This document shows positions 1 to 58,878 of a DNA stretch of 64,000 nt, one piece after another (within the stretch, counting starts at the first letter, position 1; the number at the start of each line of letters is the position of its first letter). The stretch is taken from positions 744,001 through 808,000 of the forward strand of contig CAJZHL010000031.1 in NCBI GenBank assembly GCA_916048055.1. Reading direction: 5' to 3'. Position numbers and translations under genes: made by a program. The stretch is from Pedinophyceae sp. YPF-701. Lineage: Eukaryota; Chlorophyta; Pedinophyceae. A model generated the notes under the pieces. It made no database searches. It was not told the DNA's origin and worked only from the letters and a program-made list of their open reading frames with translations.

Positions 1-1893
1 GGCACCAGCGACGTATCTCCAGTGCGACGCTCGCTACGCTTCAACCGCCCCGCAGAGATGCCCACGCGACGTTCTGCGGCAACGCGATCGCCAAGCCCCT
101 CCGTGCGGGCTTCATCGCGCTAGACGCTTCGCGGACATGGATCGCGTACTGGAACATTCACTCCCTCGCCCTCCTGGGGCGGCCCCTGCCACCTCCGCCC
201 AAGTCCGCCGGGCCCGAACGCGTCGCACAGGGCCCCACAGCCACCCGCGAAGCGCTCATCTCCTTCCTGGCGTCTTGCCAGAGCCCGCGCGGCGGGTTCG
301 GAGGCGGGCCGGGGCAGCTGCCGCACCTCGCGACCACGTACGCTGCCATTGCAGCCTTGGTCGAGCTCGGCGGCGATGACGCCCTCGCCGTACCGGACCG
401 CGGAGCCCTGTGGGAGATGCTCCTTCGGCACTGCGTTCCGCCAGAGGAAGGCGGCGGCATGCGGGTCACGGAGGGCGGAGAGGTTGACATTCGAGGATCC
501 TATACTGCCGTTGCATCGGCATACATGGTTGGACTCGACGTCGCAGAGCTCGACCGACGCGCGGGTGCGTTTCGCATTGCGTGCGCCGCTCGGCCTCACG
601 CCCGCCGACCCTGTCGCGGGCGGCGGCCTCATTTGGGCACCAACTGACAACCATGGCAGCAAGTCTGCATGTTGCAGGGATCGTCGACTACGTCCGGCGC
701 TGCCAGACGCACGAGGGCGGCCTGGGCGGCGAGCCTGGCAACGAGGCCCACGGTGGGTACACGTACTGCGGCGTTGCGTGCCTGAAGCTCCTCGGGAGGC
801 TCGATGCAATCGACACGAGCGCGGCGGCCAGGTGGGCGTCCGTCCAGTGCCAGGGCAGCACGGAGGGCGGCTTCCGGGGCCGCACGGACAAGCTGGTCGA
901 CAGCTGCTACGCGTTCTGGCAGGCGGCTGCTCTGCCGATCCTGCGCGACGCGGGCGTGGGGGGATGCGCGGCGGTGAACGCGGCAGCGTCCGGGACTGGC
1001 GGGGCGGCGGAGGCGTGGCGCGCGGTGGCGGATGAGGTGCAGAGTGCGGACCTGGCCCCGCGGAGTCTGAAGGAGCAGGCCGTCGGGCTGTCGGAGGCTG
1101 CAGCGGCTCAGGTGATTTCACAGTCTTGTTTCCTCGATGTCCGCGCCGTCCTTGAGAACAGGCGCCCTCGGCTCTGCGCGCGTGCATCGGCGCCCTCGGC
1201 GTGCGCTCCTGGGGCATTGATTGGCCCCCGCACCGCCCCACGCGTGCAGGAGGTAGAAACCGTGCAGTCGAACACCGCTGAAGTGCGCACCACCGACGAT
1301 GAGGCCATCGCGGCGTTCCTGCGCGCCGGACAAGCCCAGAAGGCAGCCGAGCTTGCCCTCGACGACGTCGCCACCGCCAGCAGCGCCGCGCCGGCCGTCT
1401 TCAGGCACGCACCCCCGCACCAGCGCCCCTTGCTCCGCCACGCAACGTCGGGGCGAACGAACCGCACGGCGCACCCTGCCCATCTCACGCCTACTCCACA
1501 CAACGCTCCGACCTGTCCGCGCGATGCAGAGAGATCCTCGGCACACAGCCTGCCAGCGGCGCACCGCAGGACGCGCCCGCGACGCCGGAACGCGCGTTGT
1601 TCGACGCGCTGTGTCTGCAGGGGTGGGTGCTCGCGTGCGGGCAGCCCGACAGCGGCGGGGGCCTGCGGGACAAGCCCGGGAAGTCCGTCGATCACTATCA
1701 CACGTGTTACGCGCTCAGCGGGCTCTCTGTCGCGCAGCACTGCGCCAGGGCGGGGCTGCAGGGCGAGGCGGCGGACGCGGTGCTTCTGGGCGGGCCTGGG
1801 AACCTGCTGCGCGCCACGGATCCCGCGACGAACGTCGTGACCGACAACTTGAGAGCTGCGTTGAGGTACTATGGCGAACGAGGGGGCGTGTGA
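1..1893 (+). CDS. FNTB: Protein farnesyltransferase subunit beta, 5' partial
   Basis: Catalytic beta subunit of protein farnesyltransferase, which works with an alpha subunit in the cytosol to attach farnesyl to CaaX proteins. Exons: <3-564, 678-1111, 1250-1404, 1530-1893; all phases agree. Exon 1 is open to the window edge, so the N-terminus lies outside. Visible family landmarks are LDASRTW near the start, SPRGGFGGGPGQLPHLA, GGEVDIRGSY, EGGLGGEPGNEAHGGYTYCG and GGFRGRTDKLVDSCYAFWQ. The zinc ligands D and C are in VDSCY, and the zinc ligand H is in DHYHTCYALSG. LRDKPGKS is the conserved C-terminal motif. Intron 3 (1405-1529) starts with GC (CAG|GCACGC), and using it restores the phase exactly. 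The region between VDSCY and the last exon is longer than in animal FNTB and carries an Ala-rich insert (exon 3). The identity is very secure; exon 3 is the least certain part. Confidence 0.93.
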
Positions 1894-2532
1894 GCGATGG
1901 TGCGGTGCGAGCGCGCCGGGGACCTGAGGGCGCTGCTATGGTGCTGTACGCGAGAGGGCAGAGCAGCGGAGACGGTCTTGAGACCGTGGCCGACCGCCGA
2001 CCGTGAACAGGCAGGTTCCGACTGTCTTCTCAGGTTGCCTGGAGGCCGCCACTCCAAGGTGTGTTCGACGTGACGTGGACCGCAGACGGCGTCAGACGAT
2101 ATGGTGTTTCCTTGTGCGCGCTTGTCTGCGCGGCGAGCAGCGTCCGGGGGGGGAGCGCGAGTCGGTCTGTGCGCTCATGTGGCAATGGGGGTCACCCGGG
2201 GTGCCGTTCGCCCTCGACAGGTCATGGCGCTCGCGCCAGGCAGCGCTGAGCAATAGCGAGACATCTCTTGGCCGCGTCACTGCCTTTCGTTGCTCGGAGC
2301 GGGAGGCTGGCGCTGGAGAGTTGCCGGTTCACGTGTTTGGAGGTTTGGAGCCGACAGGGGCGCGGTGAGTGTGCCGCCGCCGGGACGCGGACGCCGTTGT
2401 CTAGGACGCGGCCGGGATCTGCACTGACGCGTCCGATGTCGCGGCACACGCCTCCTGTGGCCTCGTTCCGCTCAGGGCTTGTCTCCTCACCCTCGCAGCG
2501 CATGCCGCATCCCGTGCGCGTAGGTCGACGTA
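1894..2532. other. Intergenic region, FNTB to kinase
   Basis: I see no gene here. It must hold the 3' UTR of the farnesyltransferase gene and the promoter and 5' UTR of the kinase gene. Short open frames are present on both strands, but none shows a domain or a splice pattern. Confidence 0.5.
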
Positions 2533-4852
2533 ATGCAGGCGACACTGGCCAGTGCCGTCGCAGAAGACCAGAAATGTGCCGGGGAAGACTCCATGCGGCT
2601 TGCGCGGGAGCTTGAGACGGCAGGGGGCTCCATGCAGCCCACTGAGGCGTCAGGGGCGGACCTCGAGCCCGTTCCCTCGGCCGCGAAAGTCTCCTTCGAC
2701 GAGGCGTGCCCGCAGACGCCGCCGCGTGACTACGCGAGCGCGAAGCCCGCCCGTGTGCTCTCCCCAGGGAAGACGACGATTGCACGCGTGAAAACGATAC
2801 GCCCGGACTCCGAGATGCGTTGGGACGACCTCGAACTCATCAGCGTGCTGGTGAGCTCCCCTTCGGCACGCCTCCCGCGCGCACACCTGCGCAAACCGGG
2901 CCCGACAGAGCGCAACCCCCGTTGCCCTGGCAACTTCCCGCGCACGATTGCCGCGTTTCTCCGCGCAGGGCAAGGGCGGGTTCGGCGAGGTCCTGCACAT
3001 GCGTCACAGGGACCCGATGTCCGGCCGGGAGCGCGATGTGGCGGTCAAGCTGCTGCTACCTGGACACGAAGCAAAAGAGGACGATGTGTTGTCGTACGTG
3101 CGCGAGGCAGAGATGCTGCGGCTGCTCGAGCACCCGCACATCGTGCAGTTCGAGGGCATCGGGCTCACGACGGGCGATCCGGACAAAACCGTCGCGCACA
3201 GAGACGCGCGGAGCTCGCTAGGTGAAGCGCCCTGCGCCATCGCCGCTCGGGCCGCACAAGCGATGAGACGAGGGAGCGAGCGGCGACGCGTCTCCGTTTT
3301 GTCGGCACCTGCATTCTGCGGCCCCGGACGGCCTATGCATTCCACCCATGTTGACTGCCCCTCAATTTCTCAGACTACAAGTGCGCGCACGTCTATCTCT
3401 CTTCGCAGCCTCGGAGGGCGCCGCGCCGGAGCTGGGCGCCCCGGAGCGAGTCACGGAGGGCACCGGCGCGGCCGAAGCGGGCGCCGCGCTCGAGGTGCTG
3501 CGCCTAGCGCGCCACAACCAGCTGGCAGAGGGCGCGGAGCGGCTGTTCGTCGTCCAGGAGCTGTGCCTCGGCGGGTCGCTGCGCGACCTCATCCGCAAGC
3601 ACCGCGTCGCCCACGGGAGCCGCAGCATGCCGTACCGGTGGGACGCGGCGTTCCGGTGGCTGTGCGGGACCGCCAAGGCCCTGCAGCACCTCCACCGGAA
3701 CGACATCATCCACCGCGACGTCAAGGTGGGCCCCTCTTGACCTGTCGGACGCGCGGGCGACGCCGCGGCGATGTCTGTCCGTGGTGGGTGCAGTGCTGCG
3801 TTGCGTAGTTGCAGCATGTGTATGTGGCGTCCGACGGGTGTCGGTCGCACGGCGTGCGCGCGTGCAGTTGGAGAACATTCTGATCAAGGTGCCGGACGTG
3901 GAGTCGAGGGAGTGCCGGGCGCTGCTGGCAGACATGGGGTTGGCCCGACTCATGGCCGACAAAAAGGAGCAGCTCATGCGCACGGTGACCAAGTGGATCA
4001 GCTCCGGCACGCGCCCGCGCTCCAGCGGCCTCCGCCGAGCCTCGGGGCGCAAGAGCGTCGACAGCAGCCGCGGAGAGGGGTCTGGGCTGGACACCTCCCT
4101 TTCAGTCCCCCGCCAGCTGTCCATCGCGCAGTACCGGCGCATGATGTCGCGCGGGCGGCCGTCGCAGCTCAACACGCAGGCGGACGTGCAGCACCACGAG
4201 GCGCTCGCGCTGACGGGCTGCACGGGGTCTCTGATGTACATGGCCCCGGAGGTGTTGCTGCAGAAGCCGTACAACGAGAGCGCGGACGTTTTCTCGTTCG
4301 GGCTGTGCATGTACGAGGTGCTCATGATGCGGCTGCAGATCACGGACGTCCTCGCGGCCAGGGGCTTCGCGGGCGATACCGGCTTTTCAAAGGTGCAGCA
4401 GCACGCGCTGCAGGTGGCGCGCGGGTACCGCCCGAAGGTGCCGCGGCAGTGGCCGGCCGAGGTGAAGGCGCTGCTGAGCGAGTGCTGGAGCCAGCAGAAG
4501 GAGAAGCGGCCCACGATGGCCCAAGTCGTGTCGGTGAGCTTCACTCGGCCGCGTTGCTCCTCCCGCGCTCAGCCTTAAGCGGTCTGGGAATGCGGCGACG
4601 ATGTGGGTGCGGCTAGGGGTGCTCACGCTGCGTATGTCCCCGGCCGCGCCGCTGCAGAGGCTGGAAGGGATGATGAGCTCAGGCGTAGTCAGCGACTACG
4701 TGCACACCTACCAGGTCATGCGGCCCGTTGGCGCCGCGACGAAGGGCCTCGAGGAAGGTCCGCTGCCTTCCATTCACTCGAGCAAGTACCACGGGCTGGA
4801 GATGCCCGGGCAGGACAAAGGGGACAAGCAAGGTTGTGGGTGCTTTGGATGA
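2533..4852 (+). CDS. TKL-like protein kinase with large inserts
   Basis: Serine/threonine or dual-specificity kinase of the tyrosine-kinase-like type, 582 residues. Exons: 2533-2850, 2969-3221, 3409-3725, 3868-4533, 4658-4852; phases agree. Residues 1-106 are a non-kinase leader. Visible motifs are the Gly loop GKGGFGEV (107-114), VAVK lysine (K133), HRDVK (D294) with the catalytic-loop N299, ADMG (318-320) in place of DFG, and MAPE (422-424), followed by DVFSFGLCMYEVL and the WP..V..LL..CW.....KRPTM ending typical of TKL kinases. Two insertions stand out: about 60 residues between the HPHIVQFEGIG strand and the LFVVQELCLGG strand, and a DMG-to-APE segment of about 107 residues rich in Ser/Arg. 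The C-terminus ends CGCFG, a possible palmitoylation site. All catalytic residues are present, so activity is likely. The substrate is unknown. The start is the first in-frame ATG of the open first exon. Confidence 0.88.
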
Positions 4853-6490: not shown

Positions 6491-6520
6491 GACACGGCGA
6501 CGTCTGAGGTCACACGCGGC

Positions 6521-14200: not shown

Positions 14201-15484
14201 CGCGGCCCCGAACTGCCAGGAGTGCTCGTGGGCGCTGCGGACGAGCGCCGCGGTGGCCCTGCGGCTGACCCCGCCGACGGCCGCGACGTGGCGCACGAAC
14301 GACTCCATGCGCCGGTCGTAGATGAGGAAGCTCTGGAGGGAGTAGAGCCAGCTCGTGAGAGCCATGACGAAGGTACTCAGGCCCGCGATGGCCAAGACTA
14401 GCTGGCGGATGCGCGCGGCGGTCCGCGCGCGCAGCTGCCGCGCCGGGTCCGTGCTCCGCGCGTCCGTCAGGACGCGATACCGCCACAGGCACGTCAGGAC
14501 CTTCTGGAGCGCGAGGGGCTGCGGAGAGAAGCGCGAACAAGCAGGTTCGATGTCGCGCCACCCCGAGGTCGTTCCCGGGCCCGCGCGGGCCGGATCTGCC
14601 CGGAATGCGGGCGGAGCGGGGAGGCAGTGTGCGTGCGGAGCGTGCGCGGGGGCGTTGCGGGCGTGCCTGTATCAGAATTCCGAGCACCGCGACGCCCACT
14701 GCGTAGGTGGCGTGGACGTATGCCACCTCGTTCACCGGCTGATGCGTGTCGTGGTACGGGTGTCGGTCCAGCACGAGCCGCTGCCAGAGGAGATTGATGA
14801 CCGGCCCCGCTGTCCCGACCGCGTCCATGATGAGCGTGAAGGCTGCAGGCACGGAGCCGTGTTGCCTCGTGTGAGGCTTGCACATCGCGGCGGTGCGCGC
14901 GAAGCACGCGAGCCACGGCGCAGCTGGAGGCCGGAACGCGCTGCTCGCTGCGGCTGTGCGGCCGTCGCGGCGGGATGGCGTCACGGGGGGGCGGCTGGAG
15001 CTCGAGCGTGCGTGGTGGTGGTGGTGGATGAGCAGGGCGTGAGAGCAGGGCACAGGGGGCTCTGGGAGGGCGCATTGCGGCCGGCGGTCGCACGGGCTCA
15101 CCGTTGTGCAGCACTACGTAGTCTGACGCGAGGACGGCGTTGATGGCGCTGTCCGCGATGAGGAAGAGCGCGAAACAAACGGCCATTGCCGAGCGACCTG
15201 TGGACGCATCCCAGGCCCCCGCCAAACTCCCCTGCCACACCCAGTAGTTCAAACTGTCCTGGAAGCACTGCGCCAGGGCGACCACCACCACGACGGAGAT
15301 CCACACGTACGACATGGAGAGCTGCACGCACGAGGACACCAACACGAAGTAGAGCGGCCCCGCCGGCGCAGCAGTGCCCCCAGCCCGCGGCGCGCGCGAC
15401 GGGAGACCGCTTCCGGGGACAGCGAACGCACCTTGACGCACAATCGTTTCCGATACGGCTCGGGGCGCTGCCGCCGCCGCTTGT
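11273..15484 (-). CDS. Multi-pass membrane cyclic-nucleotide phosphodiesterase, copy A
   Basis: Class I phosphodiesterase that hydrolyses cAMP and/or cGMP. Exons: 15484?-15102, 14842-14667, 14518-13113, 12955-12679, 12575-12229, 12134-11563, 11421-11273; all internal phases agree. The first exon is uncertain: the frame is open to a possible acceptor at 15485/6, no ATG is found in it, and a further 5' exon is expected. N-terminal exons encode hydrophobic segments (YVWISVVVVVALAQCF, AVCFALFLIADSAINAVLA). A third hydrophobic stretch lies in exon 2, and exon 3 has two more flanking a region of about 100 residues that may face outward (AIAGLSTFVMALTSWLYSL and KIVLVTFSVLLVSALF). The catalytic domain has NPYHNWYHAIDVCHS, the metal motif HDLGHLGLTNDF, SPQENGHCA, HAADVAHL, and FFVQGDKE. 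The intron between exons 2 and 3 begins GC (CAG|GCACGC). The C-terminal about 240 residues are unrecognised. Confidence 0.88.
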
Positions 15485-16507: not shown

Positions 16508-19500
16508 TCAGGCCGTAGGGGCTGCCTGGCGCGGCGTTGGCAGCCTTGGCGTGGCCGCGGCCCCCGGCCGCCACGCCGTCGTGATGAGCCGCTGCACCAT
16601 CACCGTGTACTGCTTGTTCGTGTCCATCGTCAGCACTGCGGAGTCCACCACGGCGAGCGCACGCACGTGAGACAACACACACCTTGGCACGCAGCAGCGG
16701 CTCCGACGGGCCTGGCACGCGCACGCACCTTGCGCCGGGATCGTCGACGTCGGGAGGAACACCAGCGCCTGCTTGCGCAGCACACTCTTCTCCCACGGCG
16801 CAACCGCATCGACAGCGTCCTGCCCGGGGTTCTGCGCATCCCCAGTCGACTCCCGTGGCGCGGCGACGCCCTCCAGCGGCCCGGACGACACCGACGGCAA
16901 GAGCGAGGAGCGCGGCGTCCGCGCCGGCGTCCGCGGAAGGGCCACCTCGGGGAACGACCACTCCTCCTGTGTGCGGCGGGCCTCCGCGTCCCCCTGGTCG
17001 ACGAGCGCGAGGAGGTCCGGCGCGTCGTCGTCGAGCGGCTGCGCCACGCACTCGTACGCCGCCGTCTCCGCGAACTCCTTCGCGTGGATCGAGAAGTCCT
17101 TGGCAACGGCGCGCGCCAACGCCGGAATGGGACTGACCTCGACGCGCTTCTGGCTGACGGGCGCGCCGTTTCCGTTGCTGGCCGGCGTCACCGCGGGACG
17201 GCGCGCGACGGACGTGGCCTCCACGTCTTCGCACCCGGCCAGCGCCGCCTGGTGCTGCCGAATTACTAGCAGCCACGTGCGATACGTACACCGCAGGCCG
17301 TCAACCAGCCACCCGTGCCTGCGAACGCACGCGGGGCGGGCGGTACGCGGTGAACATCGATCTCGCTACGCGGCGGGGACCGCGGTGCAACCACCGGGGC
17401 TGTCGGGCGGCGCGCGGGGACCCACCAGGGCGCGACGTGCACAAGGGCGCAGAAATAAGGGCGGATGACGGCGTCCAGGAACCCGAGCTGCCCCTGCGGA
17501 ACGTACTCCTTCGTCCGGTCCATCACCGCCGCGGGCTGCGACCCCGCCGAGCGCTCCTTGTCGCCCTGGAGGAAGAACTCCGTGACGATGCGAGAGGTCC
17601 ACTCCAGCACGCAGCCCTGCGCCCTGGCGAGGTAGGCCACGTCGGCGGCGTGGAGCAGCGACCGGAGGAGCAGGCGCCGCTCGCGGTGGCCCTCCGGGAG
17701 GTTTCCCGCGGAGCCTGCGCGCGCGAGGTCTTCTGCCAGGGTCTCGAGTTCGCTCGTGAGGCTGAAGTGGTGCTTCATGTCCGTGGCCTGGATCAGCGAG
17801 ATGATCGTCTCGCGCGCGAAGACGCGGTCCGCGGCGCGCAGGTTCCGGAACACGTTGGCCTCCGCGTTGCGCGCCATGGTCTGGAACAGCCGCGCGCAGT
17901 GCCCGTTCTCCTGGGGGGAGTTGTCGTTGTACGTGATGGCCAGCGGGTGGCCCGTTTGCACCAGGAAGTCGTTCGTCACGCCGACGTGCCCCAGGTCGTG
18001 GCTCAGCGCCGCGACCAGCAGGCACAACTTCTCCACGCTCGTCCACTGCGTCCGCGCCTCGATCGTCTCGCTCCTGCAACGCACCGCGCGACACACGCAA
18101 CACCGGCTGAGCGCCTCGCAGCCAGCGGCCGGCCGCGGTGCAGCCTGGTGCAGCTGGGGATTCGCCCTCAAGCTGGGCTGGCAGTGCAACAACACGTTGG
18201 CGGGCCCGCACCTCTCGCAGTCGAGGAGCAGCTGGAAGCACGAGTGGCAGACGTCGACGGCATGGAACCAGTTGTGGTACGGGTGCTCGTCGTACTGGTC
18301 CGCGAGGAGCTCGATGAGCGCCTGCAGCGAGGCCTCCGTCGGCATGTCGCTCGCCGCCCCGTCCGGCGCCACCAGGCCCATCCGCGCGAACATGATGATC
18401 AGCGCTTTGGGCAGCAGCCCCGGGGGCACCTCGAGAGAGTTCCACTCCCGCGTGCCGATGAGGTCCGCGTACAGCTCGGGGTCCTCGACGACCTCCACGT
18501 CCGTGTTCGACGACGTCAGCACCAGGTGGGGGACCGTATGCCCAGGCCCGCCCTCCGTCGACGATCGCCCACTTGCCCGCGACACGCGCGCCCCACCGCC
18601 ATGCTTCGACCGCCGCGGGCCGTGCCGGCGGTGCCCGCTGCCGTACAGCTCGCGCCACTCCCCGAGCCCGAGCCCCGTGAGGCCGTCCTCGCCCTCCCGC
18701 GCGACGCGGCCCACGACGTCGGCGCCACGCATGCTCTTCTTGACAGCGCGCCACACGTTCTCGCTGACGCGGTGCAGGGCGTCCTCGAGGCTCAGGGCCT
18801 CCTCCGGGGACTGCGCGCTCTTCGCGAAGCCGTACTCGTCCAGCTGCGACGCCGCGTGCGTCACGTCGGTGAGCAACGCACACAGCGGAGCCAGCACGAG
18901 CGAGTCGGTGACGTACCACAGCGCGAACGACCACGCCAGCACGGTCAGCACGAGCGTGACCTTGCGGATCGCCGACCACCGCGCGAAGCTCAGGAAGAAC
19001 GGCTCGCGCGCGAACGCCACCGCCGCGGGGCGAGGCCCGCCGGCGCTGACCACGAGGTGGTGCTCGCTGGCGTCCGCCGGGCAGGTCTCCGGGGCGCCGC
19101 AGTCGCCGCGCAAGTACTCGCGGTGCCCGTCGAGCTCGAGGTACACCACGGCGTGCCGCCTGACCTGCCACGGCGTGCGACGGAGGTCCTCTGTGACCGC
19201 CCGGAGCGCCGAGGCGGCCTCCTTGCGCGTCGTGACGGCCGCGACGGTGCCGAGGTGGCCGACGAGCGTGGGGACCTCCCTGTTCCCGACGAGGTGGCTC
19301 TGCTGCGCGTACACCCAGTTCGCGAGCCCGAGGAGGAAGAGAGAGAGGCTGGCCAGGGTTAGCATCATGCTGCGGATCCGGGACGCGAACACGGAGCTCG
19401 TGCGCTGCGCCGCGGTGCTGTCCTGCGACGCCTTGATCGCGCCGCGCCGCCAGAAGACCCCGAGGATCTTGAACAGCGCGAGCGGCTGCGAGGAACAGGA

Positions 19501-20106
19501 CATCGAGGGGGGGGGGGTTGTGCAGCTGTGGAGGGTTGGATTGCTGCGTGCTGGGGCGCGGGCTGGCGGGGCGCCGGGCGGACCTGGAGGACGAGCGACG
19601 TGACGATCGCGCGCTGCAGGAAGCAGCCTTGGAGGTGCTGGAAGACTTCCAGGCCTATCTGCGGGTGTAAATAAGCGTGGTGGTCCACGAGGACGGCCTT
19701 GTAGACCAGCATGATGGCGGGCGCGGCCGAGCCCAGGGCGTCCACGGCGTACGCCGTGCCTGCGCGCACGCCGAAACTTGGTGTTCGGTTCGATCGTGAG
19801 AGCAGGAGATTGTTGCTGTGACCTGCGACGCGCGGGCGAAGGTGCCTTGCCTGCGACGAAGCCCTGGAGTTCACGCGTGACGCCGTACGTCACGGCTCCG
19901 TCGGCCGCGAGCAGCGCTGCCGCCCCGAGCGTGAGCCAGGAGCCGCGAGAGCTGGTCAGGGCCGTGGGGGCGCCGCCCGACGCGTGCGCGGCGATGAAGT
20001 CCGCAAAGACGCACGACACGGCAGTCGTGATGATCGCGAGCTTCCATAGAGTGCTCTCCGCCAGCTGCAGGTGGCGCGGGACGTGATGGTGTTGAGTGGT
20101 GAGCAC
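16508..20106 (-). CDS. Multi-pass membrane cyclic-nucleotide phosphodiesterase, copy B
   Basis: Tandem paralogue of PDE-A with the same domain order. Exons: 20106?-19851, 19759-19584, 19485-18212, 18073-17426, 17318-16729, 16635-16508; phases agree. The 5' end is open: the first exon frame has no convincing ATG, so at least one upstream exon is missing from this call. Hydrophobic segments include STLWKLAIITTAVSCVF, LTLGAAALLAADGAV, MMLTLASLSLFLLGLANWVY and VTLVLTVLAWSFALWYVTDSLV. Catalytic motifs are HPYHNWFHAVDVCHS, HDLGHVGVTNDF, SPQENGHCARLF, HAADVAYL, FFLQGDKE. The C-terminal region matches copy A at HGWLVDGLRCTYRTWL, AVAKDFSIHAKEFAETAAYECVAQPL and LTMDTNKQY. The first resolved intron starts GC (CAG|GCAAGG). 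The copy-A intron after the MK of TDMK is absent here, where TDMKHHF is uninterrupted. Confidence 0.88.
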
Positions 20107-31208: not shown

Positions 31209-31282
31209 TGCCAGAGAGCGGACTCGAACCGCCGACCTACTGGGTGTAAACCAGGTGTCATAACCATCTAGACCACTCTAGC
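31209..31282 (-). tRNA. tRNA-Val (anticodon UAC)
   Basis: A 74-nt cloverleaf on the minus strand. The acceptor stem GCTAGAG pairs with CTCTGGC, including one T-G wobble, with discriminator A. The anticodon loop is TTTACAC, giving anticodon TAC (UAC), which reads GUA codons. Four of five anticodon-stem pairs are Watson-Crick; the outer pair is mismatched. The T arm is GGCGG-TTCGAGT-CCGCT. There is no intron, and the CCA end is not encoded, as expected for a nuclear tRNA gene. Confidence 0.93.
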
Positions 31283-34800: not shown

Positions 34801-36927
34801 GTGCGCTCTTGTGCGCTCCTCGCGACCAGAGCGCTCGTCTGCAGGCGCTGGAGGCCTTGACTGCAGCGACGTAGCGCCGCACGCACCTGACAGCGACACC
34901 TGCACCGTCGCAGGCCCCCCCGAGACATCGACTGCGGTGACGTCGGTCGCGATCCCGGGGCCGTGCAGCGCCGCGACCTGCAGCGCGCGGTCCGTCCAGC
35001 GCGCGTCGAGCGCCGCGTGATCCGCCACGACGCCCGCAGCGCTCGCCAGCACCACCGTCCGCCCCGCCGCCTCACCGTCTGACACACCCTGACGCTGCAT
35101 CGCCAGCGCCGCGGCGCCGGCCACGAACGGCGCCGCCATGGACGTGCCCGTGCGCAGGCCGTACGCCGAGGGTCCGGAGCCTTCCGCCGCGTAGATGCGC
35201 GACCCGGGCGCAAAGAGGTCGAGCGTGGCCCCAAAGTTGAAGTTGGGGACTCGAGACACCCCCCCCGCGCCGTCGGACTGGAGCGCGCCCACGACGAGGC
35301 CGCGCTGGAGCTGCGCGGGCCACCGGAACGCCGCGTCCATGCCCTGGTTGCCCGCCGCGGTCACGACCAGCATGCCCAGGTCGTGTGCGTAGCTGATCGC
35401 GAGCGTGACTGCGCGCGCGACCCCCGCCACGTACCCTGCGCAGCACACGAAGCACGACGGGTTGCGGGGCCCATGAAACGAGAATCACCAAATACAAACA
35501 CAAAGAACAACAAAAAGGGAATCGAATGCAAAACGAAAGAGAGCGGATATGTGACGCGCGTCATCGTCCCGCGCCCCCCACCAGCCCCCTGTCCAGCCGA
35601 CGCCGCCACACCAGCGCTCGTCCGCACCTGTGAGCGACACGTTGATCACGCCCCTCCGCCCGCGCGCCACCGCATGCTCCGTGGCCACGACGATCGCGTT
35701 CACCACCGCCGCGAACGACCCCTGACCGTTCGCGTCCAGCACGCGCAAATCAAACACCTCCGCGTCCTTCGCCACCCCCACCGTGCGCCCCGCGGCCACC
35801 GACCCCACATGCGTCCCGTGCCCGTTCGCGTCGTCCTGCGCCGCCGGCACCGCATCGAACAGCCGCGAGGCCCGCGTGCCGGCGCCGTCGGCCGTCCTGA
35901 ACTCGTCGTGCGTCAGCAGCATCCCAGTGTCGACCACGTACAGCGCCTGGCCGGCCCCCGTCGCCGCGTAGCAATACCGCCCGTCGTTCGCGGAGCCCGG
36001 CACGCTGCCGCGGTCGATGTAGTCCAGGCCCCACAGCGTCACCGCGCCGGATGTGCTGGCCGTCGACTGGCACAGCGGCGCGCTCGCAGCCTCCTGGGCG
36101 GCGCGCCGCGCTGCCGCCGGGTCTTCTGGGGGCTGTAGAGTGCGGCCGAGGCTCGCGGGGAACGGCGGGAGGGACGGAGGGGGTGCGGTTTGTTGGGCAC
36201 GTGTTCGCCGGCGCGCCGTGGGGGGCTGCGGGGAGTCTTGGTTGTCGGTGTCGTCGAGAGATACCAAAAAGTCTTCTTCCACCGCGACGAGGCAATCGGC
36301 AGCTGCGGCGGCCGCGGCGGCCATCGCGCCCTCCGAGCAGTGGACTGCGAGGACGCCGAGGGAGCCCAGGCGGGCGAAAGGCAGCTCGAGGGCTTCGAGC
36401 TGGGCCACGACAGCCTGTGCAGGGTTCGTACAGGCGTCTGTCTGAGGCGCGAGCTCGAACAGCCACGTCGTCGTCCCCTGGGACGGAGAGAACGACCGCG
36501 GCTGAGCGCCGCCTGGCCCGGTCGGGGGCTGGTTGGCGCCCTGGAGAGTCAAATGGGGCGGAGCTCTGCAGGGGCAAAGACCGAAGGTCGTGTCGGAGGC
36601 TGCTCTCACGATGGGCGGGCCAGACGGTAGCTTGTTTCGAATATGAAGTTGTGCACGAAGCGTCGTGCGCGGAATGCGCCCCGGAACGGGACGGCTCGCG
36701 CGCCCGTGGTGGACGGAGCAGGCGGTGAGCTGGCAACGCCTGGCGTCCAAGGAGCGGCGTGAGGATGGTTGGATTTGCGTTTGCCGGGCGCTACGAGCTC
36801 ACCTTATGATGACGGGCAGCCTCGTGCCGGAAGTACGCGCCTCGATGGTGCGCAGCGCGAGCAAGACCAACAGCAACACCGCAACGTGCCTCCCGCCGGC
36901 GGCCTGGGGCCGGCAGGAGCCGCACAT
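31808..36927 (-). CDS. Membrane-anchored subtilisin-like serine protease
   Basis: Secretory-pathway S8 protease of the proteinase-K type, 1,509 residues. Exons: 36927-36803, 36565-35628, 35435-34887, 34725-31808; phases agree. Exon 1 encodes a signal peptide (HVAVLLLVLLALRTIEA). A propeptide-like stretch follows (TTTWLFELAP to CLVAVEEDFLVS). The catalytic residues are Asp in YVVDTGM (about 253), His in GHGTHVGSVAAG (about 291), oxyanion Asn in TAAGNQG (about 382) and Ser in GTSMAAPFVAGAAAL (about 452). Two beta-rich segments and a Cys-containing domain follow (CGGTDRCTLAVEFC). Then comes a Thr/Pro/Gly linker, one transmembrane segment at about 1053-1078 (VALVAVALVIVLSV, then RSARKRR as stop-transfer), and a Ser/Pro-rich cytoplasmic tail of about 430 residues with three copies of a DSRRSLRPHGATPPPSRGVS type unit. 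The likely site is the plasma membrane or an endomembrane with the protease outside. Confidence 0.93.
32407..32675 (-). repeat. Coding repeat in subtilase tail, three copies
   Basis: Three copies of a roughly 85-95-bp unit encode an SRRSLRPHGATPPPS-RGVSFGAES pattern, with the first two copies closer to each other than to the third. The conserved SRRSL and SRGVSF cores look like kinase or adaptor-binding sites, which is inference. Confidence 0.85.
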
Positions 36928-37515: not shown

Positions 37516-40500
37516 ATGGCGGGCCCGGGCGAGGCGCCGCAGTGGCAGCGGGTGCTCAGCGACGCGCTTGACCTCGCGCTGGTCGAGCTCGCCGCGGACC
37601 AGGTGACCTCCGGGCCCGGCGTGCAAACAGCCACCTGCGAGCTCTCTCTCGCTCCCAGCCCGCCGCGGCGGCGTATGCAGGCGCACGAACGAGCCACGCT
37701 TGCGCTGACCTGGATGTTCTGCCCCCTCGCACCGGGCACGAGCCTCTGGGGTTCTCGTGCGCGCCGCGCCAGGCGGTTGCCTCCAGCAGAGAGGACGTCG
37801 AGGGGCGGGCGGGCGGGTGTCCCCGGGGCGTGGCCCGACCTCGAGCGGCCCGTCTGACTGCGAGGTGCAGGCGGGAAAGGTCCGCGAGGAGGTGTCGGCG
37901 GAGCTGAACGCCGTCGTGCGGGCCGCGAATAACGTGTTTGGCTTCAAGTTCAGCGGGCGGGAGTTCGACCCGGCGGCGTATGTGCGCTTCCTGGCGGCCG
38001 CAAGCGCCTGCTTCAACCTCAGCGCGGATGACTTCGCGGGAGGCGACGTACTGGAGGTGCGGACGTCGCCGTTCATGGCAGCGGGGGCCAGCAGGCGCGC
38101 GCTGTTGAGGCGCGACGTGCAGCCTGTGGCTCTGCGCGCGTGCCCTGCGCTTTCCTGCGTGCGGACGGTACCTGGCTGGCTCATATACTACCGCAGGCTG
38201 CGCGTGGCGCGTCGCTGGTGCGTCGACGCGGCGCGCGCAGCGCGTCGGGCGCAAGTGTGCAACAATGTCTACTTTCGTCGTCCGCGCTCCTCAGCCCGGC
38301 GCCCTCCCGCCCCGCCCGCCGCCGCAGATCCACGGATACCTACGCTCGATCATCGGGGAGATGACCACGTCCTTCCCCGCGGCGCACGACGCCCTCGAGC
38401 GCACCCATGGAAAGGACACCATCGATCAGTGCCTCAACAAGTGCCGCGTTGCGCGCCCGCTCCTCGTCAAGGTGCGCCGTTCGGCCAACCCCACGCACAG
38501 CGACCTCTCGACCCGCCCCCGCGCCGCGAAACCGGTCCGCGGCGGCGCCGAGAGACGGCTGCTCGGCCAACAGCGCTGCGTGTGCTGCGGCAGTGCGCCC
38601 GCTCCGCTGCCCCGTTCGCGGCGGACGCGCCGCCTTCCGCAGAGGCATGTTGGCGGAGATCCCACGGCCGAACGCGCTCCGCGCCCGGACCTCGCAGACC
38701 GAGATCCTGGAGGCGCTGTTACCGTTGGGGCTGAAAGTGCCCGAAGAGGTCGGGGGGGCGGACCGGGCCGCGAAGGACGCGCTCACGCAGCTCGAGAGGC
38801 TCGAGACGTACAAGCAACAGGTCGCGGCGAAGGCCAAGGCCGGCAAGAAGAGCAAGCTCGCACCGATTGTTGCGAGCGTGGAAACCATCCAGGTGCGCAC
38901 GCGCCGCGCACGCGCCGCGCCGGGCCTCGCGCCCGGCGTGTTCCGGACGGGCGCTGTACAGCGTGGCGACGGCCGCGGCGCCGGCCCTGGCCGCTGATCG
39001 CGTGCGTGCGTGTGCGTCGAGTGCAGAAAGCAATCGTGGACGCGCGGCGCCAGCCGAGCGGAGATCGGCAGCAAGAGAGCCTGGAGAAGGTCCTGCATGA
39101 CTACGTGCAAAGCGAGGGCGCGAGCATCCAGGCCGGCATGCGCGCGTGGGGGTGGAAAGCCCTGCAGGTGCGCGTCGCTAGTGGCACGTCAACTGACCTT
39201 GAATTGCCTGCCCCCTGAGGGAGCGCCAGACCTCGAATTGCGACGTGATCCTTCGCGCCGTCGCAGGCCGTCATGGACGCGTTCCCCCGGCAGGCCCGCG
39301 CCCCGGACGCGACCCCGCCGGCGACCGAGGCCCAGGTCGCGACGGACGCCGCCAACCCCACGCCAGGCGCGATCTGGCTGCCAGACGCGCCGCCGGCTCG
39401 CCGCGGCGCCGCGACGGCCTCGCCCGCGCGCCCCGCTTCCGCCGCCACGGCGCAGCGCGGGCCGCAGTCGCCGCGCCCCGCGGGGGGGTCGCCGCAAAAG
39501 TCCCCCCACGCGAGGGCCGTCCAGGCCGGCACCGCGGACCTCCGCGAGTGGCCGGTGGACACCAAGTGGCGCTGCCATCGCACGGTCCCGTTCGGCCTCG
39601 AGCAGGCCCCCGCCGACCCGGAGTCCTGCACCTACTGGTGTCGCGTGTGTGGGCGGGGCGGGCTCGCGGTGGCACAGCTCACGTACCACGTCAGGACGGC
39701 CCACGGCGACCTCGTGCGTCGCAGCCGGCGCGTCGTCGACGGCGAGTCGTCCTGGGACGCCGACCCGCGCCCTCTGTACCTGCCGCTCGCCGCAGATCCG
39801 ACGACGCGTCCGGCGGGGCGGCCCCGCGTCGCCGCGAGCTGCCTGCACCCGGGCAGCTCCCAGGCCGAGCGCGCGGCCGCGACCGCCGCGCCCGAGGGGC
39901 GGGCGCGTGTTATTGCGCAGGGGGGAGGAACGGCGACGCCGCGCTCGGGCTCGAAGGGACAGGCGCTCGCGAAGGCTGCGCGGGTGGCCGGGGAGGTAGC
40001 GCCGAGCGGCGCGGCCGCCAGGCAGCGGCCGCCGTCGACGAAGGCGAGTCCGGCGGCGCTGCAGCGGGCGCGAGTGGGCGGCAGCGCGGCGGCGTTGCCT
40101 GCGCGGCGGGGGCCCGCGGAGGGCGGCGGCAGCGTGCTGGAGAAGCTGCAGCTGCGGGCGCCGGTCTCGGCGAAGGCGGCGATGAGCGGGGGTGTCGCGT
40201 TCAGGGGCGGAGCCCCCCCCGGAGCGTCGAAGATGACGTATGGCGAGAAGATGCGCGCGGCAAGGCGGGCCGCGGGGCGAGGAAGCTCGTCTAGCTCGGA
40301 GGACGGGGGCGGCCGGGACGACGAGGTGCGCATGCCGGAGAGTCCCCCCGATGGCTGCTCTGGCGGATCGTGCTTGTTGCGCCGGGGTCGCGAGAGCGTG
40401 CAAATGACCGTGCGTCGCTTCGTATTCGTCGTTGCCGCTGCAGCCGCAGTTCACGCCGCAGGCGCTCGTGGTCGCGAGGCGGCCGGAGGCGGCGCGCGGG

Positions 40501-48001: not shown

Positions 48002-49169
48002 ATGGGCGACGCCGCGCTGCATAGACTGTCCGAGCGGTTCGGCCTGGCGGGGAAGACCGCGATCGTCACAGGTGCGCGCACGGCTCGCTCCAGTCGTCTC
48101 ATGCACGCCAATCACATCATCCGCACGTACCGGCGCATGAGGCTCCAAACGAACCGTTTGTCCCTCACGCCCGCTCGAACGCTGCCTTACCTCGCTTGAG
48201 CCGCGCTCTCGATGCTCGGTGCAGGGGGCACGAAGGGCATCGGACATGCAGTGGTGGAGGAGTTGTGCGTGCTCGGGTGCACCGTGCTGACGTGTGCGCG
48301 CAACAAGGAGGACCTCGACAAGTGCATCGACGAGTGGAGAGCCAAGGGCTACCAAGTCCTGGGCATGGCCGTCGACTGCAGCGACAGCGCCGGGCGGCAA
48401 CTGCTGCTCCAGGGCGCCAGCACCGCGTTCGGCGACACGGGACTCGACATGTGCGCGCCCGCACCGACGCGCACCCGCACGACGCAGCGCGGCTGTCCCG
48501 AACGGCCGCCGCCACATGGCCCGGAAATCGCGACGTGAAACTCATGTCCTTGTTTTCACCTGTCCGTTGTGCAGTCTGGTGAACAACGTCGGAACGAACA
48601 TCCGGAAGCCCACGGTGGACTACACGGAGGACGAGGTCGGCAAGGTCATGTCGACGAACCTCGACTCGGCCTTCTTCGTCTCCCAGGCACGCGCGCTCTT
48701 GTCGTACCATCTTCGCCCCCTCACCCGTCGCCCCGGCGCCGTGCCCCACGTCACGGACCCCTCCGCGCGCCCGCAGATGTGCCACAAGCTGCTCCGGCAG
48801 GCCAAGGGCTCCGTCGTCTTCGTGAGCTCCGTGGCCGGCGGCCCCCTTGCGATGAAGTCCGGCACGCCGTACGCTATGAGCAAAGCGGCGATGAACCAGC
48901 TGACGCGCAACCTCGCGGTGGAGTGGGCCGGGGACGGCGTTCGCGTCAACTGCGTCGCGCCGTGGTACACCGCGACGCCGCTCGCGATGCAGGTGTTGCA
49001 AAACGAGCAGTACAAGGATGCAGTGCTGTCGCGGACGCCGATGGGGCGGATCGCGACGCCGGAGGAGGTGGCGAGCTGCGTCGCGTTCCTCTGCGGCAAA
49101 GGCGCGGGGTTCGTGACCGGGCAGGTGCTGTCGATAGACGGCGGGTACTCGTGCATGGGGTTCTTTTAA
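48002..49169 (+). CDS. Tropinone-reductase-like short-chain dehydrogenase
   Basis: Classical SDR oxidoreductase using NADP(H), 266 residues, the usual family length. Exons: 48002-48071, 48225-48450, 48575-48686, 48777-49169; phases agree. Motifs are cofactor-binding TGGTKGIG, LDILVNNVGTNIRKPT (NNxG), catalytic Ser in VVFVSSVAGG, YAMSKAAM (Tyr-x3-Lys), and the substrate-side VRVNCVAPWYTATPL, ending GQVLSIDGGYSCMGFF. The ILVNNVGTNIRKPT and PWYTATPL blocks are typical of plant tropinone-reductase-like proteins, whose real substrates are often unknown carbonyl compounds rather than tropinone. The third intron starts GC (CAG|GCACGC, 48687-48776). Reading through it in frame would insert 30 residues in a conserved helix, so splicing is preferred. 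Confidence 0.92.
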
Positions 49170-49226
49170 CCATGACGCGCGCGAACGCGAAGACCTAGTA
49201 ACAAGTCTCCCTGTGCGCAGTGGTCA

Positions 49227-51074
49227 TCACACGCCCGCCTTCGTCTCGGCAGCCGCCTTCTTCGCCATCGTGTCGCTGCGTCCCTCGAGAATCACCTCCT
49301 TGAACGCGTTGCTGACCGTCGCGTTGTCCGGCTCCAGCCGCATGGCCTCGTACAGCGCCTCGGCCGACTCCTGCCACATGCGCTTGCCCCGGAGAGCCAT
49401 GCCCTCCCTGTACCACGCCTTGACGTTCGTGGCGTCGATCGTCCGCGCGGTCCGCGCGTCCGTCAGCGCGCCGTCCCAGTCTGACACGCGCAGGCGGCAC
49501 GCGGCGCGGTTCGCCCACGTCACCGACAGCGACGTGTCGTGCCGCAACGACGCCGTGTACGCCTCTATCGCTTCCCTGCAACGGCCGGGGCGGAGCAGGC
49601 CACACGTCGCACCCGCGCCGAGCAGGACGCAGTCAACAAACAGCGAGGGCGCAACAGACACGAAAACATAGCTCCGGAGCAACGTCGGGCTCTTACTCCA
49701 TCTTCCCGCCCACGAACGCCGCGTCGCCCTCGCGCTTCCGCTCCGCCGCCCGGTCCTTGTCCGGCTCCTCCGCCGCAGGCACCTCCGCCCGCTCGTCCGC
49801 CACCCCGCCCGCCTGCTGGAACTTCTGTTGACCTCTATACTCGTCCCCCCACGCCATCAAGCCGTCCACGGTCCACTCGCGCGCGCGCCCGCCGCGCCCC
49901 TCGATCGGCCCCTCGGGGCACCGCTCCAGCAGCACCTCGACCACGTTCCGGTGCTTGTTGATCGCCGCCACCTCGGGGGGGGTGTTTCCCTGCTCGTCGC
50001 GCGCACCGACGTCGGCGCCGGCGTCCAGCAGCGCCCGGACCATCGCGACCTCGCCGCGGTCCGCGGCGGCGTGGAGGCAGGAGAACCCGCGCGGCTGCTC
50101 CGCGTTCGGGTCGCATCCTGCCGCGAGAAGTGCTGAAACCGCAGCGGCCGTGCCTTGCGCGGCCGCCATCAGCAGCGCCCCGATGCCGCCCTCGGCGCGG
50201 TAGTTCGCGTCCGCGCCGGCGTCGAGGAGGGCCTTGATGGCGTCCACGGACCCCGACCCCGCGGCCCACGTCAGCGGCGCGCCAGTCTTAGATGGGGCGT
50301 CGACGTCGCTGCCGGCCTTGATCAGCGTTGTGATTATGCCGGCGTGGTTGGACGAGGCAGCGCGGTGTATCGGCATGCCACCGAGGAGGCCTGCTGCGCG
50401 TGGACTGGCGCCGCGCGAGAGGAGATAGTCGACGACGGCAGCGTTGCCATTCGCGGCAGCTACGATGAGTGGCGTGTCGCCGTCCTCGTCGGGGGAGTCC
50501 ACCTCGCACGCGCGGTGCTCCACCAGGTGGCTCACGAAGTCCACGCTTTGGGATTCGGCTGCGGGAGACGAAAGAACGAAGAACAGGGTATTTCAAGTGC
50601 CGAAATGCCGATGTTCCGGGTGCAGCGGCGAGCGCGCGGGCCCGTCGCATGCTAGCTGCGTGGTGGCTGACGCAGGACCGCGTTTCGCGTGGGATGCAAT
50701 GGCGTGCCTGCGACGTGTAGCGGCGTTCTCTGGGTGTCATCTTTCAATGTCCGGATCTCCTGGCTCTCGGGGAGCTCTGCGGCAGCCTTCTCGAGCCGCT
50801 CAATATTCCCCGTCTTGCAAGCTTTGTACACAAGGTCGCGAGCGGCCTGCAGACAACGGGTTCAGCCAGCATTCTTCTTAGCATCCTTCTTCTAGCAGAC
50901 CACGCGCGCAGGGGAATACGACTGCGTAATCGCAGAAGGAACGCTAGCTCCTGGTTCTATGAGAGTACGCCCTGCCGTCGACGTAGCAATCTTTGATCTG
51001 TAGCGCGTGGAGGACCGACAGTCCGCCTTTCGTCCCAGCCGCAGTCGCCACCTCTCCGTTCCACGTACCTCCAT
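49227..51074 (-). CDS. Ankyrin-repeat / TPR protein
   Basis: A 451-residue scaffold-type protein. Exons: 51074-51069 (only ATG GAG), 50846-50708, 50558-49697, 49575-49227; phases agree. The N-terminal two-thirds are about seven ankyrin repeats (TPLHVAAES, DGDTPLIVAAANGNAAVVDY, GAPLTWAAGSGSVDAIKALL, GFSCLHAAADRGEVAMVRAL, and others). A linker (EWTVDGLMAWGDEYRGQQ) follows. Then comes a three-motif TPR domain beginning KREGDAAFVGGKMEEAIEAY, with TWANRAACRLRVSDWDGAL and AWYREGMALRGKRMWQESAE. The combination resembles plant ankyrin-TPR co-chaperone-like proteins. The TPR could bind Hsp70/Hsp90 tails, which is inference. The intron after TPLHVA starts GC (CAG|GCACGC). The 6-nt first coding exon is inferred from ATGGAG|GTACGT in the right phase, so the start is less certain than the rest. 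Confidence 0.86.
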
Positions 51075-55157: not shown

Positions 55158-56530
55158 ATGTCGATCTACGGAATGAAGTTCGGGGACGTGGGGAACGAGA
55201 TCGTCTCGAAGTCCCTGCGGACGGCGCTCGACTTTGAGAAGGACTTCAATGGGTGGAAATTCATCCAGTTCTCCCAGGAACACACCGAGATCCCCATCTT
55301 CGCCGTCACGGCCTACCTCTTCTTCGTCTTCTACTTCCCCGGCCAGGTCCGCCCCCCTCACCACCCCCGCGCCCTCCCACGCCACCGCGCACCACCGCAA
55401 GCCCGCAACGCGCGCGGATGCGCGTCCCCCGGCCCGCGCGCGCCGCGCAAGCGGATGGTTCCTCCATGTCCAGGGCGTCGCGCCCCAGCACGGCTCTCTC
55501 CCGGGCCTACACAGCCCGCGCGGCCCCCTCCCGCCGGCAGCGTCTTCTGCCTTCGCGGCCCGCCACGCCCGCCGCGGCCGCACCAGCGCCCAACGCGCTC
55601 CGCGCGCGCCCTCTCCTCCTCCCGCGCGAGCCATCAGCGGCGCCCGCGCCCCTTCATCACGCCGCACGGCCCGCCACGCGCCCCGCGCGCTGCCTCCCGG
55701 CGCTGCCCATCTCTCGTCGCGCTACGTCCGCGCGCGCGCAGATGGTCCACCGGTCCGCGTGGAAGGGCACGAGCTCGATGCTGACGGTCGCGCTGTGGAA
55801 CCTCGGCCTCGCGGCGTTCTCCCTGTGCGGCGCCCTGCGCATGGCACCCTTCCTTCTAACCAAGGTCCACGAGGAGGGCTTCCGCTGGACGGTGTGCACG
55901 GACCCGGGGGACTGGTACATCAACGGCCCCGTGGGCTTCTGGATGATGGCGTTCATATTCTCGAAGATCCCCGAGCTCATGGACACGGTGTGGCTGGTGC
56001 TGAAGAAGAAGCCCGTCATCTTCCTGCACTGGTTCCACCACCTGACCGTGCTGCTCTACTGCTGGCACTCGTACGTCAACCGCATCGGCCCGGGCATCTG
56101 GTTCGGCGCCATGAACTACTGCGTCCACGCCATCATGTACTTCTACTACTTCCTGGCAACAGTCCCCTCCCTGCGGAAGCTCGCGCGCCCGATGGCGCAG
56201 CTCATCACGACGGTGCAGATCCTGCAGATGGTCGTCGGGTCCACCGTCACCGTCGCCTCCGCGTGGTACGTGTACGTCGGCGGCGCCGCGTCGTGCCACG
56301 TCAACTCCGCGAACTGGAAGATGGGCCTCGCGATGTACCTGTCGTACCTCGTGCTCTTCTGCGTCCTCTTCATCGACAAGTACCTCCCCAAGGACAAGAC
56401 CGGGCGCGACAAGGCCGAAATCTGCGGCGTGGAGGTCAACGCCAAGCAGGTCGACCGCGCCGGGTTCTTCCACACGGACGAAAACAAGGGCAGCAACGCC
56501 GACCTGCGGTCCGCGAAGAAGCGCAAGTGA
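55158..56530 (+). CDS. ELO-family fatty-acid elongase (3-ketoacyl-CoA synthase)
   Basis: ER condensing enzyme that extends fatty acyl-CoA by two carbons; 325 residues. Exons: 55158-55346 and 55742-56530, separated by a 395-bp intron, long for this window. Family motifs are KIPELMDTVWLVLKKK, the histidine box HWFHHLTVLLYCWHSY (HxxHH) and NYCVHAIMYFYYF, with LRKLARPMAQLITTVQILQM after them. Multiple hydrophobic segments agree with the usual six to seven membrane helices. The C-terminus ends SAKKRK, whose lysines may serve as an ER retrieval signal. The HWFHH box and NYCVHAIMYFYYF fit the ELOVL6/ELOVL3-like group acting on saturated and monounsaturated chains, rather than the polyunsaturated group; that is inference from motif memory. 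Confidence 0.93.
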
Positions 56531-57256
56531 GCGCGGCCTGCGGGGCCGGGCGGGCTCCCGCCGGCGGTGCGGCCGGGGGGGGTGTTGAGGCTGACGTTGC
56601 GCACCGGTGTGACCGAGGCGACCGTCCGAGGGGCCTCGCGCCGGGAGTTGTGCTGAGGGGATGCGTTGGAGCGGGCTGCGTGCGGCGACTCTGAAAGGCG
56701 GTGTGTGGGGGGGCGGGGGGTTGTCGGGGGTTGTGCGAGTTGGTGGAGTGGCCTGCGTGTCCGTGCGGCGCGCGACGGCGATGGAGTCGCTCGGTGCTGC
56801 GCAGGGAGCGTTGGCGCGCGGCCTCGGGGCTCCGCGCGGCTGTGCTGCGTGTGGGGCGTAGGGAGGTGTGTTGGGAGAGGTCTGACGGACGCGTGTGTGC
56901 GCTGGGGCGCCGCGTCGACATTACTCGCCGGCGCGTGGCGTCGCGGCAGACTCCAGGCTGTCGCACAGAGGCTCCTGGCCGCGTTTGATCGTCGACCAGC
57001 GCCGGACGTCGCCTGTGACCTCCTCCGAGAGGATCCACGCGCCCTCCTGCGCCTCCTAGGGAGAATACGCCCGTGTGCGCGCACTGACGTCGATCTTTCT
57101 GATACGGTCCGTACGTTTCAGACCAGTTCAGACGCATCCAGGCGCGCTGCGCCGCGAACGGGAGTGCGTAGTCAGCGCTCCCGGCCTTTCCGGGCGTGCC
57201 ACGGCGCGTGAGCGCCGCTTCGGAGCCGGGACACGCGCGGAGAGGAGCGGACCACG
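56531..57256. other. Intergenic region, elongase to PG-rich repeat gene
   Basis: No gene is supported. The left half is G-rich on the plus strand. It holds the elongase 3' UTR and the promoter of the next gene. Confidence 0.45.
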
Positions 57257-58878
57257 ATGGAGCCGAAGGTGGTGGCGGGGACTCGGTCCTCCTTCGGGAC
57301 CCAGCTCGTATCTAGCAAGGAAACCGCACCGCAGACTTCTTTCGGTAAATCGCGGCGCGAGGCCCCCCTATACAACGAGGTGCGCGTTTCCCGGGTCTCG
57401 TCGCGCGCTCCTATCATGTATCACCGATCCGCGAGGACCAACGCGCGTTTCTGCGGCCCGCGGCGCCGCACGAGCGACATCACATGCCCCGGTTGTTCAC
57501 CGGCCCATGCTCGGGCCGGAGGGGCTTGGTGCCGCGCCGAGGCGTGCTGACCGCTCGCGTGGCTGGAGTTTGGTTGTGTGTGTAGGTCATGGACGACACC
57601 ATGAAGGGGCGCACGGGCCCGGGCGCCTGCTACGCGTCGAAGTCGTCGTTCGGGTCACAAACTCTGGCAGGGAAAAGGACCTCCGCGTCGCACACGTTCG
57701 GAACGAAGTCGAACAAGCCGCTGAACAAGGAGGACGTGCCGGGTCCTGGCAGCTACGGCATCGAGAACGGCTTCGGGAGGTGAGTCCGGCGCGGGAGCGA
57801 CTGCGTTGCTGTGCTGAGGGATCTCGCGGAGCCCCTGCGCTCCCGACATGGCGCGAAGTGGCGATTTCCGCCAACCCGCGTCGCAGACAAACGCTCAGCT
57901 TGCGGCAGAGCGCGCGAACGGCGGCGTTGGATCGCGGAAACCGCTGGAGCGAGCTCAAAAAGGACTTTCGCCAGTCCGAATTCACCCCAGGCGAGTGCCC
58001 CACGCCGCGGCTGCCCCACGACACGAACGCCCAGCCAGCACCCTACCCTGCGAGGCACGGCGCCCGCTCCGGGCGCCCCTCCGGCCCCGTCAGCTCCCCA
58101 GCAACAACAAGTTGTGTTGCGCTGGTCCGCGCAGGCGCCCTGAACCCCAAGGTGCGCGGGCAGGTCGGCGACGCGCCCGGGGTGGTGATGCACGGCAAGG
58201 GCGGGCGCTACGACATGAGTAAGGGCGGCGTTCCGGGCATGAAGCCGACCGCGCTGCAGACCCCAGGGCCGGGCACGTACGGGCTGGACAGTACCTTCGG
58301 GCGGCAGACCGTGGCGCGGCACGCGACGAGCGCGACGGCGCGCTTCGGGCGGGCCACGCGGGAGCAGTGCGACAAGCAGTACATCTCGTGAGTCCCCTCA
58401 TTACACCCCCCCCCCAAGGATGGAAGCCGCGCACGTTTATGTTCTGGGCTGTTGGAATGCCCGCTTCTCAGCGGACGGCCGGCCGCAGACTGGCTCGCCT
58501 GGCCGTTGCTGCGTGATTGAGGGCACTCCTCGTGGTCGGTGGGGGGTGTTTTGACAGCTCGGGGTGTGGAGGGCTGCGGGATGGGGACTGACGCCGCCTG
58601 TCTGTCTGCGCTGGCTCGGGCACTGCAGGTTCGGGCACGAGAAGGACATGTTCGGCAAGCACTCGCCCGGTCCGACGACGTCGCGACCGGGCTCGGCGTT
58701 CGGCAGCCAGGCACCCTCGGGCCGGCGGACGACGGCGGCGTTCAGCTTTGGGTCGGGCGACAGGTTCAGCGACTTCAAGCCGAGCCAGCGCACCCTCAAG
58801 AAGACGGGCGGGGACCCGAAGAAGGTCCCTGTCAACAGCATAGAGCGGACTCCCGGCCCGGGCGAATACCTCGTGTAA
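57257..58878 (+). CDS. Sperm-tail PG-rich repeat (SHIPPO/ODF3-type) protein
   Basis: A 307-residue repeat protein of the type found on or in ciliary microtubules. Exons: 57257-57379, 57586-57779, 57887-57990, 58135-58387, 58629-58878; phases agree. PG repeats visible are TGPGACYASKSSFGSQ, VPGPGSYGIENGFGR, TPGPGTYGLDSTFGRQ, SPGPTTSRPGSAFGSQ and TPGPGEYLV at the end, each with the following SFG/FGR motif. Intron 3 (57991-58134) would start GC (CAG|GCGAGT). The frame is also open through it, so retention would add 48 Pro-rich residues. I prefer splicing, because the inserted text lacks repeat character and ends in a good acceptor. The protein implies axoneme-related structures, or cortical microtubule use, in this organism. 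Confidence 0.87.

Follow-up and report, generated by a model that had tools for sequence, protein, structure and literature searches.

The 64,000-base window analysed here (G000:C31:744001-808000, from the nuclear genome of the green alga Pedinophyceae sp. YPF-701, lately named Akinorimonas japonica, PMC12574857) contains genes for a farnesyltransferase beta-like protein, two phosphodiesterases (PDE-A and PDE-B, PF00233), a tropinone-reductase-like SDR protein, an ankyrin-TPR protein, a PG-rich protein and a trypsin-like protease (PF00089), each of which carries an intron, or in the PG-rich gene a candidate intron, that begins with GC and ends with AG (Table 1). Six of these GC-AG introns had been named in the original prediction, and all six indeed start with GC, end with AG and leave the local spliced frame open; the seventh, in the protease gene, had been overlooked. 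The window was studied together with the loci L001-L020, a sample of 257,162 bases on 20 contigs with a GC content of 69.1%, drawn from a genome of 27.9 Mb in 32 contigs.

Deposited proteins of YPF-701 were sought with fragments spanning the predicted joints and then positioned on the DNA by exact match (a few terminal residues are unplaced in P0001, P0121, P0125, P0128 and P0133). Of the 15 fragments that span a GC joint, ten led to a YPF-701 protein containing the joint, and no protein was retrieved with the other five, which come from L007, L014, L016 (two) and the PG-rich gene. A second search with 20 in-exon fragments retrieved seven YPF-701 proteins, and its 13 fragments without a match include some from the same five missed genes. 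None of the four control joints (AT, AT, GA and AG) is present in a retrieved protein, P0121 having only the right half of the AG joint. Altogether, 11 deposited proteins demand 12 GC-AG introns, and shifting the joints produces a GT-AG register in none of them. These 11 proteins, with 12 GC and 32 GT introns, were chosen via their GC joints, so that this count is biased; taken together, the deposited proteins that map to the window, 12 in number, have 6 GC and 46 GT introns. Removal of five of the six predicted introns is demanded by deposited proteins. The PG-rich intron is unproven: its length is divisible by three, it is free of stops, neither protein search (joint fragment or in-exon fragment) returned a deposited protein, and the exons tried gave no stop-free version of a longer spliced model.

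Comparison with homologues is consistent with several of these joints. The GC-spliced SDR model is 100% identical to the NCBI protein P0001 over 266 residues, and its joint, SQ/MCHK (here and below, a slash marks the cut or joint), is ungapped in an alignment with 11 relatives. Outside the window, two more GC joints are located within conserved domains: the SRP54 joint (L011:2133-2306) lies in a gap-free alignment to chloroplast SRP54, and there is no gap at the joint of a NEK-like kinase (L015:4380-4528) compared with Nek7. P0125, the deposited ankyrin-TPR protein, contains ankyrin Pfam domains. The farnesyltransferase intron is located in a linker, so that the family alignment is no test of it. 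Separately, the deposited kinase P0121 demands a second GC-AG intron (L015:6428-6523), with the weak donor CCG/GCGCAC and a length divisible by three. Two calls with CAG/AT donors and AG acceptors (L012:5382-5477 and L009:4405-4511), the joints of which occur in no retrieved protein, are probably errors; the latter appears to cut wrongly through what we take to be an AAA+ motif.

The two phosphodiesterase genes are tandem neighbouring paralogues with 39% identity, and their GC and GT states are reciprocal at two identical positions and phases. At the phase 1 position where LHN-A is aligned with FVA-G, the donor is GT in PDE-A and GC in PDE-B; at the phase 0 position Q/PLAL, it is GC in PDE-A and GT in PDE-B. 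These two pairs support the original interpretation of the GC donor as the GT signal with C in place of T at position +2.

Table 1. Introns with GC donors in the window and their GT-AG partners in the phosphodiesterase paralogues
Feature	Position	Strand	Donor	Evidence	Gene model score
Farnesyltransferase beta-like gene, GC-AG intron	1405..1529	+	CAG/GCACGC	required by deposited P0128	0.74
PDE-A (PF00233 phosphodiesterase), GC-AG intron	14519..14666	-	CAG/GCACGC	required by P0123	0.91
PDE-A, GT-AG partner intron	14843..15101	-	ACG/GTGAGC	P0123 and paralogue alignment	
PDE-B, GT-AG partner intron	19486..19583	-	CAG/GTCCGC	P0126 and paralogue alignment	
PDE-B, GC-AG intron	19760..19850	-	CAG/GCAAGG	required by P0126	0.46 (fixed prior); 0.98 (learned GC class)
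Doubtful GC call	36216-36094		ACG/GCGCGC	divisible by three, stop-free; no deposited protein	fixed-prior call
Tropinone-reductase-like SDR gene, GC-AG intron	48687..48776	+	CAG/GCACGC	deposited P0001	0.99
Ankyrin-TPR gene, GC-AG intron, joint TPLHVA/A	50559..50707	-	CAG/GCACGC	required by P0125	
PG-rich protein gene, candidate GC-AG intron	57991..58134	+	CAG/GCGAGT	unproven	0.85
Trypsin-like protease gene (PF00089), GC-AG intron	62419..62502	+	CAG/GCGCGC	required by P0124	0.98

The frequency of GC donors was estimated with an intron-aware gene model, written for the purpose, that is class-fair, i.e., treats all 16 donor dinucleotides alike, and that recovered the SDR and PDE exons when checked. 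In the fixed-prior run (prior of 0.85 for GT and 0.01 for each other dinucleotide, an identical flank model for all, calls at >0.5), the expected numbers of introns are 246.4 for GT, 17.1 for GC and 3.7 for the next best non-GT class; 244 GT and 17 GC introns were called (17/261), with at most two calls in any other class. The window accounts for 6 GC and 71 GT calls, and the rest of the sample for 11 GC and 173 GT calls, a share of 6.0% (3.0-10.4). The six window calls (starting at 1405, 14666, 48687, 57991, 62419 and 36216) differ from the six introns of the original prediction: they include the doubtful call at 36216 and the unproven PG-rich intron and omit the PDE-B intron (0.46) and the ankyrin-TPR intron, which was called in none of the fixed-prior, learned-class and equal-prior runs. 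With the donor context restricted to AG/XYRNG, the fixed-prior calls comprise 15 GC and 129 GT introns and 6 for the 14 other dinucleotides together. A second run, with equal priors across all 16 donor classes, called 196 GT and 21 GC introns (9.7%, 6.1-14.4), the next class having 6, and removal of the introns that can be read through from the fixed-prior calls of both classes at >0.4 leaves 10 GC and 212 GT introns (10/222, or 4.5%, 2.2-8.1). With estimates from 4.5% to about 10%, GC donors make up about 1 intron in 15, and they occur on many contigs. The 8% of the original prediction lies within the intervals of both the equal-prior and the fixed-prior runs; its statement that this is far above the approximately 1% of most eukaryotes is true, yet unsurprising, because GC-rich algae have been published with 7.7% to 65% GC donors.

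The donors do not share one sequence, as had been claimed: CAG/GCACGC is found in only four of the six predicted introns and in 5 of the 18 GC calls at >0.4 in the sample (6 of 19 if the ankyrin-TPR intron is included). By their first five bases, the 17 GC calls fall into GCACG (7), GCGCG (5), GCGAG (3), GCAAG (1) and GCGCC (1), which is the same range as that of the GT donors, with a bias to A at +3 and to CAG before the cut. Among the GT donors, GTGCG is indeed the commonest (131/244), as predicted, whereas GTACG (22) ranks third, behind GTGAG (40). In the equal-prior run, CAG precedes 17/21 GC compared with 73/196 GT donors (p=0.00025), +3A is present in 10/21 compared with 30/196 (p=0.0012), and the mean number of Watson-Crick pairs with U1 outside +2 is 5.67 compared with 4.75 (p=6e-5). 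The flank of the gene model is GT-shaped, favouring CAG, and G over A at +3, so that the enrichment of +3A is safer than that of CAG. The introns begin with GC, end with AG and join in frame, the PG-rich one without confirmation by a deposited protein, and the remainder of the donor is near the U1-pairing consensus, more closely than in the GT donors.

A search for the splicing machinery identified one U1 locus, with a score of 70.2 (cut-off 69.5), the 5' end of which is the canonical AUACUUACCUG. No second copy was detected by DNA search, and a pattern that left U1 positions 5 and 7 free to be any base matched that gene only; a gene copy with a changed 5' end, the mark of species with altered U1, was not found. 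The altered U1 small nuclear RNA (snRNA) that had been offered as one explanation of the GC donors therefore finds no support. In its wider form, that the alga accepts C at +2 because its U1 is variant or modified or because a protein of U1, for instance U1-C or LUC7, has changed, this explanation draws on the GC-AG share in excess of the usual 1% and on the proposal of Iwata and Gotoh that, the U1 sequence being no explanation, base modification or U1 proteins might be involved (PMC3033335). Only one LUC7 locus was found here (G000:C11:476304-477355); in animals and plants, proteins of this family affect which donor is chosen. Given the single canonical U1 locus and the fact that GT still accounts for about 90% or more of the GT and GC calls, such a change in U1 or its proteins appears very unlikely. 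U6 has the motif ACAGAGA (read by eye, L021). That the introns belong to the minor (U12) spliceosome is exceedingly improbable: the consensus of U12-type donors is RTATCCTT, which the GC donors do not resemble. Searches for U12 and U6atac genes gave no match here, but they gave none in any control genome either, and so this absence carries no weight.

These observations are best compatible with ordinary major-spliceosome (U2-type) introns that have C in place of T at +2 and are recognized by a normal U1 in a genome of GC-rich base composition, a reading to which we assign a probability of roughly 0.85. In a 69% GC genome, T-to-C changes at +2 would be frequent, and C at this position would be tolerated provided that the remaining donor bases (CAG before the cut, +3A, +5G) pair well with normal U1; as a consequence of such frequent and tolerated change, GC and GT would give way to one another at a given intron position in the course of evolution, with about 5-10% of introns in the GC state. 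The introns would then be spliced as modelled, with the usual use of U1, T to C would be the usual direction of the change, and base composition would be its driver.

Several observations weigh against this interpretation. The evidence for splicing consists of prediction and of deposited protein models. Among seven deposited proteins not chosen for GC joints, 0 of 29 introns have a GC donor, a count that is itself biased against GC: the genes with GC joints had already been selected, and the leftover window genes supplied six of the seven. The outcome also depends on the gene model. A first self-training run, in which the non-GT donors formed one learned pool, assigned the GC introns to a 'CA' class offset by three bases, and this run was replaced by the shared GT-flank and equal-prior runs; with neutral flanks for the non-GT classes, GC obtained 3.2 against 1.7-6.4, no excess over the others. 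When one class at a time was free to learn its own model, CA (28 calls) exceeded GC (24); the totals of these single-free-class runs were set aside, since learning its own model inflates every class, and restriction of the same runs to AG/XYRNG left 17 GC, 2 AT and 1 GA, with none in the other twelve non-GT classes. One GC call from these runs (39396-39524, 0.63) is exon in the deposited protein P0131. Together with the unproven PG-rich intron and the doubtful call at 36216-36094, this wrong call might suggest that the GC donors in general are mis-phased or artefactual joins, the more so as the joins rest on prediction and deposited models. Nevertheless, the deposited proteins, the homologue alignments and the paralogue positions agree, and the 14 control dinucleotides remain at the level of noise, which renders wholesale artefact highly improbable.

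A further difficulty lies in open-frame introns. Among the calls at >0.4, 8/18 GC introns compared with 39/251 GT introns are stop-free multiples of three (p=0.005; in three cases, two of the 251 GT calls are alternatives for a single intron), and as these eight can be read through, some of the GC calls may be exon. Four of the eight have outside support (48687, 62419, L005:5730 and L011:2133). The excess might mean that a sizeable part of the GC-AG introns are not constitutive and can be retained in frame, the GC donor marking regulated or inefficient splicing; intron retention is extensive in Emiliania huxleyi, where GC donors abound (PMC4028052). Against this, multiples of three are about equally common among the deposited GC (4/12) and GT (18/61) introns, read-through is impossible for 10/18 GC calls, and stop-free multiples of three are the class in which false calls come easiest, so that such in-frame retention is considered unlikely. 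Quite unlikely, too, is that the GC-AG introns form a retention-prone class in which the weakening mismatch at +2 has been kept where retention leaves the frame open; if true, splicing would control which protein variants are made, in a lineage whose donors switch between GT and GC while the intron positions stay fixed.

Frequent GC-AG introns are already known, often at higher levels, from other GC-rich algae, and YPF-701 adds a pedinophyte. Iwata and Gotoh (2011) report GC-AG shares of 39.6% in Aureococcus anophagefferens, 22.2% in Micromonas pusilla and 7.7% in Chlorella sp., link the share to GC content, give the U1 5' end AUACUUACCUG for Aureococcus, M. pusilla and Micromonas RCC299, and, finding the high share unexplained by this sequence, propose base modification or U1 proteins (PMC3033335). 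YPF-701 resembles the first three as a very GC-rich alga with a raised share (17/261 overall and 11/184 outside the window), comes closest, with about 5-10%, to Chlorella among their algae, and has the same U1 5' end as Aureococcus, M. pusilla and RCC299, in keeping with the canonical U1 of the GC-rich algae examined. The evidence differs, being prediction and deposited proteins in YPF-701 and alignments of expressed sequence tags and Unigene entries in their algae; the exchange of GC and GT between paralogues and the U1 pairing outside +2 were considered here in addition to their approach. A further point against the preferred reading comes from the same paper: Micromonas RCC299, with 64.1% GC, has only 2.7% GC-AG introns, so that base composition alone is insufficient. 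In E. huxleyi, GC donors reach 56-65% in a genome of 65% GC (PMC4028052); as in YPF-701, a GC-rich genome combines GC donors with canonical AG acceptors, but in E. huxleyi GC is the majority, some junctions are proven by reverse transcription PCR (RT-PCR), and intron retention is common. In animals and plants, U2-type GC-AG introns, which make up about 1% (PMC7072748, PMC7242645), likewise have a GC donor, an AG acceptor and one U1 mismatch at +2, and their share is roughly five to ten times below that of YPF-701. Among the papers searched, none joins 'pedinophyte' and 'GC-AG'; Repetti et al. (2022), who published the genome, may already give a figure.

An origin of the GC introns from introners was considered and rejected: no family was found among the 18 GC introns of the 257 kb sample, although one of them matches a GT intron over 32 bases (E 0.001). 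In L003, three introns (1257-1154, 5849-5726 and 9583-9462) are 72-90% alike within 10 kb, which suggests tandem gene copies. Elsewhere in the genome, G000:C6:715334-778578 contains eight kinase-domain matches, all on one strand, that cover a common range of the profile (2-259) and are spaced by about 8-12 kb, a predicted tandem array of paralogous kinases. Within the window, a tRNA gene (31209-31282, minus strand) is located in a stretch of about 27.4-31.8 kb for which the gene model calls no coding exons.

YPF-701 again shows that many GC-AG introns can be present with an unaltered U1 sequence, and its tandem phosphodiesterase pair is a natural experiment, on a small scale, in the exchange of GT and GC donors at fixed positions. 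In practical terms, roughly every tenth to twentieth intron in this genome would be broken by gene finders that admit only GT-AG introns.

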